Positions 57,763 through 61,973 of a stretch of DNA of 64,000 nt are shown here, one piece after another; positions within the stretch are counted from its first letter, which is position 1, and every line of letters begins with the position of its first letter. The notes under the pieces are model-generated. The model made no database searches. It worked only from the letters and a program-made list of their open reading frames with translations, and had not been told where the DNA came from. This DNA comes from Olsenella sp. An285 (GTDB taxonomy: Bacteria > Actinomycetota > Coriobacteriia > Coriobacteriales > Atopobiaceae), in NCBI RefSeq assembly GCF_002159625.1, contig NZ_NFIZ01000002.1:124001-188000 (forward strand), read 5' to 3'. The translations under genes and the position numbers were made by a program.

Positions 57763-57901
57763 CGTGTCTCCTTCTCTCGGGGCCTCTGTCTATAACACGA
57801 GGCTGCGTCCCGTCTGTCCCAAAATAGTCGGGGCGCCCGACTCGCTACACTTGGGTGAATGAAGAACCGCCGAGAAGAACCTCTGCTCGTGAAGGAGCCC
57901 C

Positions 57902-58390
57902 ATGGAGAAGATCGCCAGCTTCACCGTCAACCACCTTGCGCTCGAGCCGGGCGTCTACGTGTCCCGCGTGGACGCCGACCCGGCGACGGGCGCCGTGGTC
58001 ACCACCTTTGACCTGCGCCTCACCGCGCCTAACCGCGAGCCCGTGATGGACACCGCGGCCGTCCACGCCATCGAGCACCTGGGCGCCACCTACCTGCGCA
58101 ACAGCCCGGAGTGGCGAGACCGCGTGGTCTACTTTGGCCCGATGGGCTGCCGCACGGGCTTCTACCTCATCCTCTTTGGGTCACACACCTCCGCCGAGGT
58201 GGCACCGCTCGTGCGCGAGACCTTCGAGTTCGTGCGCGACTTCGAGGGCGAGATTCCCGGCGCGCGCCCGGAGGAGTGCGGCAACTGGCACGACGCCGAC
58301 CTCGTGCAGGCCAAGTGGTGGGCCCGCCGCTACCTGGAGGGCACGCTCGAGCACATCGACGAGGCGCATCTCGTCTATCCTCAGGACTGA
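57902..58390 (+). CDS. luxS: S-ribosylhomocysteine lyase
   Basis: 162-aa LuxS with the metal ligands His55, His59 (HAIEH) and Cys126 (EECGNWHD) and the catalytic Cys83 (GPMGCRTGFY). It splits S-ribosylhomocysteine into homocysteine and the AI-2 precursor DPD. The ATG at 57902 follows AAGGAG. A GCTACACT -10-like box lies at 57844 and GAGAAGAAC in the leader at 57872. The partner Pfs is next, completing the activated methyl cycle. Confidence 0.95.
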   Translation: MEKIASFTVNHLALEPGVYVSRVDADPATGAVVTTFDLRLTAPNREPVMDTAAVHAIEHLGATYLRNSPEWRDRVVYFGPMGCRTGFYLILFGSHTSAEVAPLVRETFEFVRDFEGEIPGARPEECGNWHDADLVQAKWWARRYLEGTLEHIDEAHLVYPQD

Positions 58391-58414
58391 GATTTTGTGA
58401 CCGACGTGCGACAT

Positions 58415-58585
58415 GTGCGGCAGTACGACGTTTTTCCTGCCGATAGTGTCGCGTACTCGCACCTTTCCTGTTGGTGTGCGGAGAAGCGACACTTTCAGCG
58501 CGGAAAACGTCGGATAATTGCACCTTTTTTGGCTGAGGTGCGGCAGTCGGACGCTTTTGATACACAAGATGTCGCGCCCGCGCAC
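58415..58585. repeat. Array of three 48-nt dyad units (units 1-3)
   Basis: Units at 58415-58462, 58476-58523 and 58538-58585 are each exactly 48 nt, separated by 13 and 14 nt. Each begins GTGCGG and ends in GCAC, with a second paired block near positions 12-16 and 33-37 (CGACG/CGTCG type) and a free central 16 nt. It lies between luxS and pfs, ending 40 bp before pfs. Confidence 0.75.
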
Positions 58586-58625
58586 CTGAGCGAGAGCGCG
58601 ACAGCTTCGAAGTGAGGAGGCAGGC

Positions 58626-59327
58626 ATGAAGATCGGAATCATCGGCGCCATGGACGTCGAGGTCGAGCACCTCAAGAACGAGCTCGCGGACGCTCGCGCG
58701 GAGCGCGTGGCCGGGCAGGACTACTGCTCGGGGCGCCTGGGCGAGAAGGACGTGGTTGTTGTCAAGTGCGGCGTGGGCAAGGTCAACGCCGGCATCTGCG
58801 CCCAGGTGCTGGCCGACCATTTTGGCTGCACGCACCTCATCAACACCGGCATCGCGGGCTCGCTCGACCCGGAGCGGCTGGACATCGGCGACCTCGTGGT
58901 GGCCACGGACTGCGTCCAGCACGACTTCACGGTGGAGGAGCTCGGCTACACGCCGGGCCTCATTCCCGGTCGGGAGCGCGTGGAGTTCGTTGCGGACGCG
59001 ACCCTGCGCGAGGCGGCGCTCGCCGCCGCGGCGGAGGTGGCGCCCGAGGTGAGTGCGCTGCCCGGGCGCGTGGCGTCGGGCGACCAGTTCGTCTGCCTCG
59101 AGTCCACGCGCACGCGCATCGTGGGGCAGTTCGGCGCCCTGTGCTGCGAGATGGAGGGGGCGGCCATTGCCCAGGCGGCCGAGGCCAACGGCGTGCCCTT
59201 CGTCGTGGTGCGCGCCATATCGGACAAGCCCGGAACCGAGGGCCAGGCCATGGACTACGCCACCTTCGAGCGCGCCTCCGCCGAGCGCTGCGCGAAGATC
59301 GTCGAGCGCATGGTGGCCGCGCTGTAG
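58626..59327 (+). CDS. mtnN: 5'-methylthioadenosine/S-adenosylhomocysteine nucleosidase
   Basis: 233-aa nucleosidase (Pfs) with IIGAMDVEVEHLK at the start, NTGIAGSL, and the catalytic EMEGAAIAQAA and RAISD segments. It removes adenine from SAH and MTA, giving the LuxS substrate. The ATG at 58626 follows GAGGAGG. The dyad array before it could modulate its expression relative to luxS. Confidence 0.95.
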   Translation: MKIGIIGAMDVEVEHLKNELADARAERVAGQDYCSGRLGEKDVVVVKCGVGKVNAGICAQVLADHFGCTHLINTGIAGSLDPERLDIGDLVVATDCVQHDFTVEELGYTPGLIPGRERVEFVADATLREAALAAAAEVAPEVSALPGRVASGDQFVCLESTRTRIVGQFGALCCEMEGAAIAQAAEANGVPFVVVRAISDKPGTEGQAMDYATFERASAERCAKIVERMVAAL

Positions 59328-59342
59328 GTGCGACAGCTCTAG

Positions 59343-59451
59343 GTGCGGCAGCTCGACGGAATGGCGCCGCGGAACGTCGCTTTCCCGCACCTCGTCGCGT
59401 GAGGTGCGAAAGCTCGACGGATTCGCGGCCAGAACCGTCGCGCCGCCGCAC
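59343..59451. repeat. Dyad-unit dimer (units 4-5), 109-bp direct repeat A
   Basis: Two 48-nt units (59343-59390, 59404-59451) with a 13-nt spacer. Both block pairs are perfect. The whole 109 bp recurs at 61651-61759 in the same orientation with only two differences. Confidence 0.85.
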
Positions 59452-59513
59452 CCCAGTCGCAGGGGTGCGGTGGCGCGACGTTCTTCTTGCTAAGCATCTG
59501 CTGGGGAACGCCC

Positions 59514-60050
59514 CTACGGGAGCTCCCCAAGCGTCTGCTCTGCCAGCGTGAGCGCCGATTGGGCCCGCACCAACCGCTCCTCGTCCCAGTCGACGTTCTC
59601 CCAGGGGTCCCTCTCGTCGAGCTCGATCCAGGTTCCGCTGCGGTACCGCTCCTCGGCAGGTGCCTGGTCGAGTCCGTTGGTCAGGTACGCGCTGCGTGTC
59701 CAGGAATCTCCATCCTCGCCGGCGCTGTCGGCGACAAGAACCCACCAGGTCTCGTTTTCCTCCTGGAGCACCTCGACGGTGACGCCGCGCTCGAACAGGC
59801 CAAAGAGCCTCAGTTTCTCGAGCTGTGCGTCATCGAGCGGAACGCAGGTCATCGACGACATGACCTCCTCGTCGGGCTCGACGGTCTTGTCCTTTGGCTC
59901 GGAGTCTTCGACTCGATCGGTAACCTCGGCAGGCGTCTCCTCCTGAGTGGTCTCAGGTGCCGGCGCCGGTGCGTTGGCGGTGCATCCAGCAAGAAAGAGG
60001 CCCGTCACGATTGCACCAAGAATGGCGAGCTTGTGCCGTGCGTTTACCAT
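59514..60050 (-). CDS. Hypothetical lipoprotein
   Basis: 178-aa protein with signal peptide and lipobox LFLAGC (Cys about 23), a Pro/Glu/Thr-rich linker to residue 60 and an acidic domain of about 115 residues (CVPLDDAQLEKLRLFGLFERGVTVEVLQEENETWWVL), possibly SH3-like. No family is recognised. It lies downstream of the PASTA regulator on the same strand with a 95-bp dyad-containing gap, and both are bracketed by direct repeats. It may be a sensory or wall-contact partner of that regulator. Confidence 0.7.
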   Translation of the reverse strand: MVNARHKLAILGAIVTGLFLAGCTANAPAPAPETTQEETPAEVTDRVEDSEPKDKTVEPDEEVMSSMTCVPLDDAQLEKLRLFGLFERGVTVEVLQEENETWWVLVADSAGEDGDSWTRSAYLTNGLDQAPAEERYRSGTWIELDERDPWENVDWDEERLVRAQSALTLAEQTLGELP

Positions 60051-60071
60051 GACGCCTCACGCTCCCGATAG

Positions 60072-60112
60072 TTCAGGATTACTGAACAGATTACCTTAGA
60101 TAGTATATCTAA
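60072..60112. promoter_or_regulatory. Dyads in the lipoprotein promoter region
   Basis: TTCAG-n5-CTGAA (60072-60086) and TTAGATA-GTA-TATCTAA (60096-60112) are perfect dyads in an AT-rich stretch upstream of the lipoprotein start and downstream of the regulator stop. Confidence 0.55.
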
Positions 60113-60145
60113 CCATTCTTCGTTTGATTCCTCCTAACGTCGTTC

Positions 60146-61507
60146 TTATCCAAACGTTGCTCCGACAAGCGGTTCGGAGTACTCCACCCGGACGAGGGTC
60201 CCCACTTCCACCATCTCGCCCACAGGAACCGAGCACGAGACGACGAGCGGCCTGCTCCACCCGGTTTCCTCTGATGTCTTGTAGCCAATGACGTTTTCGG
60301 AGGGGGCCAGACCAACGTTAAGCAAGGTCGCAGACGCCTCGACGGGACCCATGCCCAAAATATTCGGCATCTCTACAGTGTTCGTGGCGGTGAGTCTCAC
60401 CTCCTCATCAGGGGTGACCCATGCTCCGGGGGGCGGGGAGAGCTCCTTGACGATACGCGAGCTCCCAGTGGAGTCGTCCTCGTAGGATATCGAGACGTGC
60501 TTGATTCCCAGCTCCCTTAGGGCCTGCGTGATCTCAGCGATGGTTTGGCGATGTGTCACGTACTGTGGAATCTGGATCACGTCTGCCACTGTTATGCGCG
60601 CAGCAGCCACCCAGTGGCCCGAGGAATACTCCTCGTGCGTTACGCCTCCGGCATCCATCGCGCTGGCCACCGTACCGACGGGCAGTTCAAGAGCCTCTTG
60701 GGAGATGACGGTTCCGGGTGGCGAATCCTCGTCGGAGGCCGATGCTATCTGCGGGAGAAAGCCGGATTCGGCAAGTGTCCCCCAGGCGTCGTGAACGTTC
60801 ATTCCAACGACTCGCGGCATATCGCCGTATGGGGTGGAGACGGTATCGTTCGCTCGCACCTCAGCATCTCCAGGCGCGAAATGGGCGACACCGAGAGCTA
60901 TGACCGCAAACGATGCCACAATAGCCCCGCCGAGCAGGAATCCTCTGCGGCTCAGCTGCCTTTGTCTCGTTGCGGGCGGCTGCCTCTCGTTGGCGTCTTT
61001 CTCGACGGCGCCCTTCTTTGTGGCACTGATCCCAGGCTCATTGAGGGGGACCCCCTCCGAGACCGTCTGGTCGAGGAGTTCTACGAGCTCGTGATGCGAG
61101 TGCACCCCCAGCATTCGGTATCCGTTGGCGCGGGCGGCGCGAACGGTCCCGGGGGCGACGTGAAGCTCCTCGGCGATCTGCGCTGTCGAGAGCCCGGAGG
61201 CCACGAGCGCGAGGACATCCGCCTGCGTCCTGTTCAGCCCATGGTTGCGCAGCGCCTCGCCCCATTCAGGCCCATCGTCGTTCTTCTCGGCGTAGCGCTG
61301 GACAAGCTCGCGACCGCTGGTGGCACCGAGCTTCTGATAGGCGTTTCTGCGGAGGCTCCCGACGGTCGACGCGCCGACTCCCATCTCCGTTGCCGCCTCC
61401 GCGGCGGTCATTCCGGCAAGCGTCGAGCGGACGGCGTCCGTCTCGCGCGTGGTGAGGCCGTGCTCGAGAAAGTCCCTCTCCGCCCGCTCTGATGCCCTGG
61501 GTATCAT
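60146..61507 (-). CDS. Membrane-anchored double LuxR-type HTH regulator with PASTA repeats
   Basis: 453-aa protein of unusual plan. Two LuxR/GerE-like helix-turn-helix domains occupy about 16-73 (LTTRETDAV ... MGVGASTVGSLRRNAYQKLG) and 88-146 (LNRTQADVLALVASGLSTAQIAEELHVAPGTVRAARANGY). A linker precedes one transmembrane helix (189-209) introduced by the twin-arginine-like SRRGFLLGG. Outside are three PASTA-like repeats, about 229-284, 312-376 and 379-445 (for example MPRVVGMNVHDAWGTLAESG). PASTA domains in PknB kinases and PBP2x bind peptidoglycan fragments or beta-lactams, so this looks like a one-component wall sensor that binds DNA from the membrane. The ATG at 61507 has AGGAGG upstream. 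Confidence 0.78.
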   Translation of the reverse strand: MIPRASERAERDFLEHGLTTRETDAVRSTLAGMTAAEAATEMGVGASTVGSLRRNAYQKLGATSGRELVQRYAEKNDDGPEWGEALRNHGLNRTQADVLALVASGLSTAQIAEELHVAPGTVRAARANGYRMLGVHSHHELVELLDQTVSEGVPLNEPGISATKKGAVEKDANERQPPATRQRQLSRRGFLLGGAIVASFAVIALGVAHFAPGDAEVRANDTVSTPYGDMPRVVGMNVHDAWGTLAESGFLPQIASASDEDSPPGTVISQEALELPVGTVASAMDAGGVTHEEYSSGHWVAAARITVADVIQIPQYVTHRQTIAEITQALRELGIKHVSISYEDDSTGSSRIVKELSPPPGAWVTPDEEVRLTATNTVEMPNILGMGPVEASATLLNVGLAPSENVIGYKTSEETGWSRPLVVSCSVPVGEMVEVGTLVRVEYSEPLVGATFG

Positions 61508-61650
61508 GGCCGCACCTCCTGCTCAAGAGTCTACGGCGCCCGGCTGCGGGACATCGTGGCAAAGCGGTATGCACCCGGTTTGCCACGCCGCTCGGGTTGG
61601 CGCTCGTCGGCGAGCGGTGGGGGAGACGAGGCCTGGGCGGGACAGAGAGT

Positions 61651-61759
61651 GTGCGGCAGCTCGACGGAATGGCGCCGCGGAACGTCGCTTTCCCGCACCT
61701 CGTCGCGTGAGGTGCGAAAGTTCGACAGATTCGCGGCCAGAACCGTCGCGCCGCCGCAC
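61651..61759. repeat. Dyad-unit dimer (units 6-7), 109-bp direct repeat B
   Basis: Units at 61651-61698 and 61712-61759, two bases different from repeat A at 59343-59451. It lies 144 bp upstream of the PASTA regulator start. Confidence 0.85.
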
Positions 61760-61770
61760 GCGTAAGTGGG

Positions 61771-61895
61771 GATTCCGGAAATCCCGACCTGCGCGTGGCA
61801 AACGTTGAACTATCGGACGCGTAGCTCCGGATTTGTCGCCAAAAGACGAGAAATCCCGAGCTACGCGCTCTTCTCGCCACGCGCAACTCGGGATT
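61771..61895. repeat. Nested hairpin element
   Basis: Inner 16-bp arms GCGTAGCTCCGGATTT (61819-61834) and AAATCCCGAGCTACGC (61851-61866) with one mismatch lie inside outer arms CGCGTGGC (61792-61799) / GCCACGCG (61876-61883) and ATCCCGA/TCGGGAT. This and repeat B fill the 466-bp gap between the regulator and degV; the rest shows nothing I recognise. Confidence 0.65.
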
Positions 61896-61973
61896 CGGAA
61901 AAAACGGACAAGCGCGTTCTGCCCGCGCCGCCGGATCGCCGCCGGACCGCCCCGGACCCGCCCCCAAGCGCCG

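Follow-up and report, generated by a model that had tools for sequence, protein, structure and literature searches.

Arrays of a rigid 48-nt dyad unit behind genes in Olsenella: a REP/REPIN-like family of putative binding sites

To our knowledge, the short palindromic repeats described in bacteria are either linked to RAYT genes or orphans. The BIMEs of E. coli are mosaic arrays of alternating inverted elements that lie behind genes, are bound by gyrase and IHF, and have linkers of variable length. In the sections of Bertels and Rainey (2011; PMC3116915) used here, REPINs are REP doublets that form hairpins; their REP cores are palindromic, compensatory changes are common and RAYTs lie nearby. 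The CGTC-tagged REPs in the main text of Di Nocera et al. (2013; PMC3733652) carry an unpaired CGTC tag, an 8-9 bp stem that mostly starts with A-T, a 4-5 nt loop and, mostly, a CCA-like tail; Olsenella, Atopobium and Actinobacteria are not mentioned in that main text. Olsenella was also absent among the matches listed in our literature search, and a search on uptake sequences in Actinobacteria found nothing.

The window analyzed here is a stretch of 64,000 nt from Olsenella sp. An285. An earlier note on it had described seven 48-nt units in groups of three, two and two, 13-14 nt apart. All seven were found, each exactly 48 nt long, with linkers of 13, 14, 13 and 13 nt inside the three arrays. 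A search with GTGCG-N7-GAC-N18-GTC-N7-CGCAC, allowing up to three mismatches, gave ten matches in the window, seven of which were the units; 100 shuffled sequences gave a mean of 2.06 and a maximum of 6. The features of the locus are as follows.

57902-58390, plus strand: luxS (PF02664; gene calls and profile), stop codon 24 nt before array 1
58415-58462, plus strand: unit 1 (array 1, luxS/pfs gap), exact pattern match, pairs checked
58463-58475, no strand: linker 1-2, 13 nt (sequence)
58476-58523, plus strand: unit 2, pattern match with a single box mismatch (TGCAC at the right end), pairs checked
58524-58537, no strand: linker 2-3, 14 nt; 13 nt in the orthologous linker of G018 (sequence and ortholog comparison)
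58538-58585, plus strand: unit 3, pattern match, pairs checked
58626-59327, plus strand: pfs, PNP_UDP_1 family (PF01048; gene calls and profile), stop codon 15 nt before array 2
59328-59339, plus strand: left-arm remnant GTGCGACAGCTC, immediately 3' of the pfs stop codon (by eye)
59343-59390, plus strand: unit 4 (array 2, convergent gap between pfs and a lipoprotein-like gene), pattern match, pairs checked
59391-59403, no strand: linker 4-5, 13 nt, CTCGTCGCGTGAG (sequence)
59404-59451, plus strand: unit 5, pattern match, pairs checked
59465-59480, plus strand: half unit GTGCGGTGGCGCGACG, mirror of the right arm of unit 5 (inverted-repeat search)
60146-61507, minus strand: regulator with PASTA and LuxR-type HTH domains (PF03793, PF00196; profile), in the segment between arrays 2 and 3
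61651-61698, minus strand: unit 6 (array 3), same sequence as unit 4, neighboring genes on the minus strand (sequence comparison and gene calls)
61699-61711, no strand: linker 6-7, 13 nt, same sequence as the array 2 linker (sequence comparison)
61712-61759, minus strand: unit 7, two differences relative to unit 5, pattern match, pairs checked

Positions 1-5 pair with 44-48 in all seven units, as had been claimed, when one G-T in unit 2 is counted. The second claimed stem, 12-16 with 33-37, held in part: it was complete in units 1, 4, 5 and 6 (with one G-T in unit 1) but interrupted by A-C at 16/33 in units 2 and 7, and in unit 3 pair 12/37 is G-G and pair 16/33 is G-T. Units 4 and 5 and units 6 and 7 are not independent, because they represent a single 109-nt two-unit array present in two places with two differences; the likeness stops at the outer unit edges. 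The half unit forms an inverted repeat with unit 5 (arms 59436-59454 and 59462-59480, 95% complementary). The segment between arrays 2 and 3 that encodes the PASTA regulator was considered as a mobile cassette; for it, no full-length relative of high identity was found in the genus, the best others being partial stretches at 68% or less. The inverted-repeat background of GC-rich DNA is strong (66 pairs in 6 kb), and further palindromic repeat families lie close by.

For the earlier note, a lack of further units, or units of varying length, would have told against a fixed geometry. The genome of the strain was found to contain 43 exact units against 0 for the reversed control, three of them (C2:55, C15:17684 and C18:8) being an identical unit at contig ends that may be one place counted three times. 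When the inner lengths were freed (left arm 5-9 bases, centre 8-28, right arm held at its length), all 43 matches were still 48 nt. The period of the units in arrays was nearly constant at 61 nt, measured on chains extended at steps of 58-64 nt only. Agreement between loci in G000 was 0.27-0.39 at centre positions 21-28 and 0.93-1.00 at positions 1-4, 13-15, 34-36 and 45-48. Since the units were gathered by the box pattern, with a limit of 1 to 4 mismatches in 16 depending on the script and units above it left out, box constancy is partly due to this selection, a bias eased only by the interior units (n=34), of which 23 had no and 11 had one mismatch over the 16 box positions, none having more and all standing at the 61-nt step. 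Compared with the units of other arrays, a unit had its best match mostly at 32-42 of 48 positions in G000 and 33-43 of 48 in G018; near-identical copies were few, the contig-end repeats among them. Near-invariant boxes beside a randomized centre argue for selection on the boxes rather than for recent copying.

The box centres lie at 3.5, 14, 35 and 45.5, giving by arithmetic spacings of 10.5, 21 and 10.5 bp; the helical repeat of DNA is 10.5 bp per turn. We favor, at a probability of roughly 45%, the reading that the units are bipartite, two-fold symmetric recognition sites in double-stranded DNA for a putative protein, arranged in arrays at the 3' ends of genes. In each half an outer word, here GTGCGG, would lie one helical turn from an inner GAC core, and the two halves would stand two turns apart, placing all four boxes on the same face of the helix. 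Each unit would be bound by a DNA-binding protein, dimeric or tetrameric and putatively a nucleoid, boundary or domesticated-transposase type factor, and tandem units might be bound cooperatively through the fixed 61-nt step. Arrays could then mark or insulate the ends of transcription units in a BIME-like manner, gaining or losing whole 61-nt units with occasional copying to new loci.

Base pairing between the arms was tested with duplicate units removed. Within units, positions 6-12 showed no excess over permuted arms in four of five genomes (p 0.13, 0.68, 0.12 and 0.43), no compensatory signal being seen in G000, G008, G009 and G006; in G018 it was weak (p 0.008). In four further genomes, pairing at positions 7-11 fell short of permuted arms, whether inside units (p 0.97) or over linkers (p 0.99); pairing at the outer six positions was at the chance level inside units (p 0.43) and lower than chance over linkers (p 0.997). 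Pairing of arms on either side of a linker, in place of pairing inside a unit, was considered and rejected: the arms covaried in G000 (p 0.011) and G018 (p 0.0002), but such covariation was absent in G008, G009 and G006, and the four further genomes contradicted it. Phased boxes together with the lack of arm covariation in four of five genomes fit sequence-specific recognition better than a selected hairpin. The earlier view of a recognized structure rather than a random palindrome is well supported by the rigid length in the genome of the strain, the 61-nt step, the box constancy beside a randomized centre and a geometry shared by six outer words; the base pairing that it implied is weakly supported, given the pairing results above.

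The family is confined to one genus within the order searched. The two-unit pattern without an outer word gave 3-43 matches in 17 of 31 genomes of the genus and at most one in the other 14, which indicates that the array system is dispensable; elsewhere in the order, 364 genomes gave 0-3 matches each, level with the control. In a scan of named genomes at least 117 stretches matched; among the 80 matches listed, 11 came from Olsenella, Atopobium, Atopobiaceae or Thermophilibacter, and the six that contained two units at a spacing of 61 or 122 nt all fell within these 11. The remaining 69 of the 80 were single and look like chance matches.

Across genomes the core GAC-N18-GTC and the geometry were constant and the outer word changed. 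The outer words found were GTGCR, TAGGMRC, GYACYG, GGGCR, GGGAC and CGGGG, as a rule alike in both halves of a unit. With the six words, 164/183, 16/16, 22/51, 10/13, 26/28 and 10/22 matches had the 12-18-12 geometry and the remainder scattered. More than one such dialect was found side by side in each of G019, G013 and G029, so that protein binding would need several proteins or one tolerant protein. The base-exact rigidity is thus combined with a core and geometry that are kept while the outer word switches between species, even at identical loci. Such switching on a constant core provides a natural series for finding the binder, as proteins can be correlated with dialects over 17 sequenced genomes. 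A wider possibility, which we regard as improbable, is a genus-wide chromosomal recognition code in which one putative DNA-binding family with a constant GAC core and exchangeable outer specificity would serve shared gene ends in switched dialects, several per cell. If true, this would represent a transcription-boundary or chromosome-organizing class of arrays distinct from BIMEs, in which sites and their proteins co-evolve fast.

The arrays sit behind genes. By orientation of the neighboring genes, 28 of 77 arrays stood between convergent and 32 between co-directional genes, 4 were called divergent, 3 were unknown and 10 overlapped a predicted gene; the gene calls came from a codon-score script and at least one orientation was wrong (luxS-pfs of G006, called divergent). 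Gene-overlapping arrays (10/77; 3/50 in the dialect count) and arrays with an unknown neighbor were left out of orientation tests. Arrays were present around luxS, pfs and the PASTA regulator as the earlier note had it, but luxS and pfs did not prove to be special neighbors, since the flanking proteins, mostly unannotated, varied between loci by eye. No transposase was recognized by eye among them. Orthologous loci were repeatedly occupied across genomes. The luxS-pfs gap of 29 genomes contained units in 10 (of differing dialects), was empty at 11-21 nt in 17 and was 66 or 93 nt long and unit-free in 2. The tree requires at least six changes for this filling and emptying, four of them forced by starred branches, and the occupancy label was barely clustered (43-56 of 500 shuffles were as low). 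A site filled or emptied at least 4-6 times resembles mobility.

The units could accordingly be REPIN-like mobile palindromes, short and non-autonomous, that a non-RAYT or since-lost transposase spreads in trans, with the boxes as transposase contacts and gene ends as merely tolerated insertion sites. This alternative, which we consider somewhat unlikely, would account for the 109-nt array whose two copies, 2.3 kb from each other, have exact outer edges, for the patchy luxS-pfs gap, for the small number of arrays in divergent-gene gaps, as in the portrayal of REPs by Di Nocera et al. (PMC3733652), and for fixed distances, like the 71 and 110 bp given for REPINs by Bertels and Rainey (PMC3116915). 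However, the copies are old, with few near-identical ones, and boxes intact beside a randomized centre are unexpected of dead copies. At 18 of 19 RAYT loci the fetched stretch contained no unit with at most one box mismatch, the unit at the remaining one being 2.8 kb away, and no RAYT (PF01797) was detected by profile or protein search in G019, which has 24 two-unit matches. A RAYT as direct driver was rejected on these grounds. No target-site duplication, as would be expected of a MITE of a DDE transposon, was recognized by eye either at luxS-pfs or at a second locus, and the empty relatives are diverged there. The exact two-unit GTGCG pattern did not occur in IMG/VR, and carriage by viruses was rejected on that basis. 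The family can be used to ask whether REP-like arrays are selected host sites or selfish sequences.

In the GTGCGG dialect, unit polarity followed transcription in all 16 informative arrays between co-directional genes (10/10 on rightward and 6/6 on leftward pairs), and in the co-directional arrays of this dialect (n=32) pairs 5/44 and 6/43 deviated as G-U in 16 and as A-C in none. Such polarity is explained by a role in RNA or one coupled to transcription no less well than by a protein on DNA. The elements would in that case be transcribed as tandem hairpins in 3' UTRs or between cistrons, such as luxS and pfs, protecting or processing mRNA, perhaps with an RNA-binding protein attached. The outer stem of the co-directional arrays paired above permuted arms when G-U was scored as a pair (p 0.0056), and so did positions 6-12 (p 0.025); this outer-stem pairing and the covariation across linkers in G000 and G018 are not needed by a pure double-strand model. 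Ten single units were folded, and three, from G008, G009 and G018, folded well (z -3.6, -5.8 and -8.3), whereas seven folded poorly to moderately, the window units giving z -0.1 to -1.6 in six cases and -2.2 in one. We nevertheless judge an RNA element unlikely. In the four further genomes the arms pair at or below chance, as described above, a loop of random sequence would have no need of exact length, and Rfam 15 gave no match at gathering score over the whole window. The G-T pairs show, in the GTGCGG dialect, the unit polarity relative to transcription (16/16), but at positions 1-6 G-T outnumbered A-C by 31 v 3 in that dialect and by 28 v 21 in other dialects (p 0.28). That excess thus failed replication in the four further genomes, and their excesses at 7-11 (64 v 30) and 17-20 (47 v 27) were matched by slid, non-pairing registers (e.g. 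66 v 21), so G-T was rejected as strong RNA evidence and only the polarity in GTGCGG dialects is retained. That the units are palindromes left by decay or chance, neither functional nor recognized, is highly improbable, for despite the inverted-repeat background, the other palindromic families nearby and a reversed control of 80 vs 177 when three mismatches are allowed, this reading is already contradicted by the exact count of 43 v 0, the single length, the intact interior boxes and the genus limits.

Putative protein-binding sites remain our preferred reading, and we read the family as new, RAYT-independent, REP/REPIN-like arrays of such sites. Like the REPINs of the sections of PMC3116915 used here, the units consist of two inverted conserved words at a set distance around a less conserved middle of set length, are intergenic and stand partly in tandem arrays, with distances of 71 and 110 bp there versus 48 and 61 nt here; a linked RAYT gene (PF01797) was not found. 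They differ from REPINs as portrayed there: single arms are non-palindromic, arm covariation was not seen in the majority of the genomes tested, the units usually stand in 61-nt arrays, and a RAYT is either lacking or not linked to them. With the CGTC-tagged REPs of the main text of PMC3733652 they share CGTC/GACG at arm ends, mirror dimers, often of unequal partners, a position downstream of genes and the lack of a dedicated or linked transposase. The tag-stem-loop-tail order of that text was not found: no such stem-loop is seen by eye in one arm, CGTC is located within the dyad, and the outer word varies with the dialect. BIMEs, too, are arrays of inverted elements behind genes, but their linkers are variable, in contrast to the near-constant 61-nt step of the units described here.

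All seven 48-nt units that the earlier note had placed in the window, in arrays of three, two and two (array 1 in the luxS-pfs gap, array 2 after pfs, then array 3), were confirmed in the sequence at its coordinates. Its description of the base pairs was mostly correct in a pair-by-pair check, apart from some deviations at 12/37 and 16/33. A search of the window with the box pattern (outer word GTGCG/CGCAC, inner core GAC/GTC) and up to three mismatches gave 10 matches, seven of which were the units, and shuffled sequences gave a mean of 2.06. Arrays 2 and 3 were one 109-nt array in two copies with two differences, and their likeness ended at the outer unit edges. The reading of the units as a recognised structure depended on further 48-nt units elsewhere, and the 2.41-Mb own genome contained 43 exact units, including three occurrences of one identical unit at contig ends, and none of the reversed pattern. 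At three mismatches there were 177 matches vs 80 for the reversed pattern, so only exact or near-exact units were considered safe. The fixed length also held in a whole-genome test of the own genome: with 5-9 nt allowed in the left arm and 8-28 nt in the centre, all 43 units were still 48 nt and none was added. Arrays comprised 1 to 5 units, and the step within them was 61 nt in 36/40 cases in the own genome (G000) and in 32/34, 16/18, 15/15, 6/6 and 5/5 cases in the genus members G018, G008, G009, G006 and G019, respectively.

When units of different loci in G000 were compared, agreement was 0.93-1.00 at positions 1-4, 13-15, 34-36 and 45-48 and 0.27-0.39 at the centre positions 21-28. Since the search pattern itself selects for the boxes, we also analyzed 34 interior positions, each enclosed by a pair of intact units at a distance of 122 (+-3) nt, with any content accepted. 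There were no box mismatches in 23 of them, one in 11 and more than one in none. The best match of a unit in another array was mostly 32-42/48 in G000 and 33-43/48 in G018, indicating that most copies are old. Old copies with conserved boxes are the expected outcome of selection on recognition boxes, not of a recent copying burst.

The GTGCG pattern was present in 12 of 60 genomes searched, the own genome included, and all 12 belonged to the same genus. A second pattern that ignored the outer word (two GAC-N18-GTC cores at a 61-nt step) was searched in 395 genomes of the order. It gave 3 to 43 matches in 17 of the 31 genus members, 0 or 1 in the remaining 14, and 0 to 3 in the 364 genomes outside the genus, like the reversed control (0 to 4). 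In the non-genus genome G066, with three matches, the matches listed were a different tandem repeat. Among the matches listed for named genomes, pairs of units at a distance of 61 or 122 nt occurred in Olsenella sp. An293 and Atopobiaceae MAGs. What recurred was the inner core together with the 12-18-12 lengths; the outer word varied between species and even inside one genome. These lengths were found in 164/183 (GTGCR), 16/16 (TAGGMRC), 26/28 (GYACYG), 10/13 (GGGAC), 22/51 (GGGCR) and 10/22 (CGGGG) matches, the remainder having scattered lengths; the loci were picked by core spacing, so that in new dialects the arm lengths alone are an independent test.

The box centres lie at 3.5, 14, 35 and 45.5, and their spacings of 10.5, 21 and 10.5 bp correspond to one, two and one helical turns, which places all boxes on one face of the double helix. 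We read the units as DNA sites, at a probability of roughly 0.45. A putative protein would bind them, perhaps cooperatively, and might affect transcription.

Of 77 array neighbourhoods, 28 were convergent, 32 co-directional and four called divergent (one a known orientation miscall); three had an unknown neighbour and 10 lay over a predicted gene. Flanks of 8/12 G008 array loci aligned with array loci of other species, and at seven of these, where both arrays were compared, the sequence differed and mostly the dialect too. The luxS-pfs gap carried units in 10 of 29 genomes, measured 11-21 nt in 17, and was 66 and 93 nt without units in two. On a tree of 29 rows (one uncounted, G012 left out), this occupancy required at least six changes, four of them forced by starred branches. 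A further locus, next to a gene judged pyrF-like by eye, had a GTGCG-type unit in 5/30 genomes; in G016, G006 and G018 it could be recognised as the same unit, and G018 had three. A comparison of G006 with G018 showed that array size can differ by one whole unit. The luxS-pfs array of G018 (locus L244) was almost identical to window 58391-58625. By luxS-pfs, G018 grouped with G016, whose gap is empty, and with G009 and G006, which carry another array. The array likeness despite this grouping suggests an exchange between species. Window 59328-61921 contains the PASTA/LuxR regulator and a lipoprotein-like gene, flanked by the two direct 109-nt array copies. G018 and G006 lack this segment between pfs and degV; it was possibly gained via recombination between arrays.

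Purely REPIN-like mobility would attribute the arrays to their own spread, and IS200-like transposases (RAYT, PF01797) were present in 28/31 genus genomes. The fetched stretch was without any unit of up to one box mismatch at 18 of 19 inspected RAYT loci, and at the other a unit lay 2.8 kb away. Among five RAYT loci scanned for inverted repeats, four from G000 and one from G018, other repeats were found at four and none at one. No PF01797 transposase was detected in G019 by profile or protein search, despite 24 two-unit matches, and the exact two-unit GTGCG pattern was not found in IMG/VR. We consider this explanation rather unlikely. Genus RAYT genes (L205, L207, L208, L216, L252) have their own inverted repeats, for example of the GGGGACAGTCCC and ATTGGGGAC/GTCCCCAAT types, and in G006 (L252) a RAYT-type repeat adjoins a unit, units 1-2 of the G018 array being absent from this place. 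In the own genome, two of its five RAYT genes appear broken, one by an in-frame stop and one in pieces:

G000:C32:70112, broken-looking RAYT gene
G000:C1:213333-214062, broken-looking RAYT gene

Pairing between arms was evaluated against arms permuted within each genome. Within units, pairing at positions 6-12 was above chance in G018 (p 0.008), with no excess in G000, G008, G009 and G006. Across the 13-nt linker it exceeded chance in two genomes, G000 (p 0.011) and G018 (p 0.0002), with no excess in G008, G009 and G006. With G-U counted, the outer six positions paired within units above chance in co-directional arrays (p 0.0056). A replication set of 111 units and 63 neighbouring pairs came from four further genomes. 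There, pairing at positions 7-11 and 16-20 fell below chance both within units and across linkers; the outer six positions paired at chance level within units (p 0.43) and less than that across linkers. In co-directional arrays of the GTGCGG dialects, deviations at 5/44 and 6/43 fell in the transcriptionally second arm in 10/10 informative forward and 6/6 reverse arrays, some of these 16 being mutually orthologous and thus fewer independent cases; informative convergent arrays split 3, 4 and 1 mixed. This polarity was initially read as RNA wobble pairing, a reading that the other dialects did not bear out: there G-T (28) vs A-C (21) showed no excess at positions 1-6. G-T exceeded A-C at 7-11 and 17-20, and slid registers gave similar excesses. 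The data thus establish polarity and not necessarily pairing. An RNA element, to which the polarity and the scattered pairing signals would belong, appears improbable. A putative protein that binds double-stranded DNA is favoured over a hairpin by the helical phasing and fixed length of the units, their randomised centre and the low level of covariation.

Other repeats were also observed in the window:

57869-57880, + strand, example of GNCGAGAAGAAC (24 in window)
61280-61291, - strand, example of GNCGAGAAGAAC
61778-61897, inverted repeats of another family, AATCCCGACCTGCGCGTGGC / GCCACGCGCAACTCGGGATT and a nested pair, immediately after array 3

GNCGAGAAGAAC was strongly over-represented (24 places vs 0.04 expected), and GGCGAGAAGAAC had 258 copies on both strands of the own genome vs 2 for the reversed control. 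The 32 window copies of CGAGAAGAAC comprised 9 in the 11% called non-coding, and 8 antisense and 15 sense within genes. The CTTCTCG core of the over-represented motif occurred inside some unit centres (9/55 in G000, 13/53 in G018, 0/30 in G008). The motif may be DNA-uptake-sequence-like or may partly reflect codon use (Glu-Lys-Asn). Several proteins beside arrays, in several genomes and the window, have EKN near the start (MSEKN, MADEKN, MTREKN, MDEKN, MEKN), hence GAGAAGAAC at gene starts. Elements resembling the 61778-61897 repeat by eye come after pfs in the genomes G017, G022 and G002.

The DNA-site reading and mobility are compatible, as sites used by the host can still spread. By analogy, the position of the arrays and their turnover are REP/BIME-like. 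Unequal partners are also usual in REP dimers, for which protection from hairpin-cutting enzymes has been proposed (PMC3733652).
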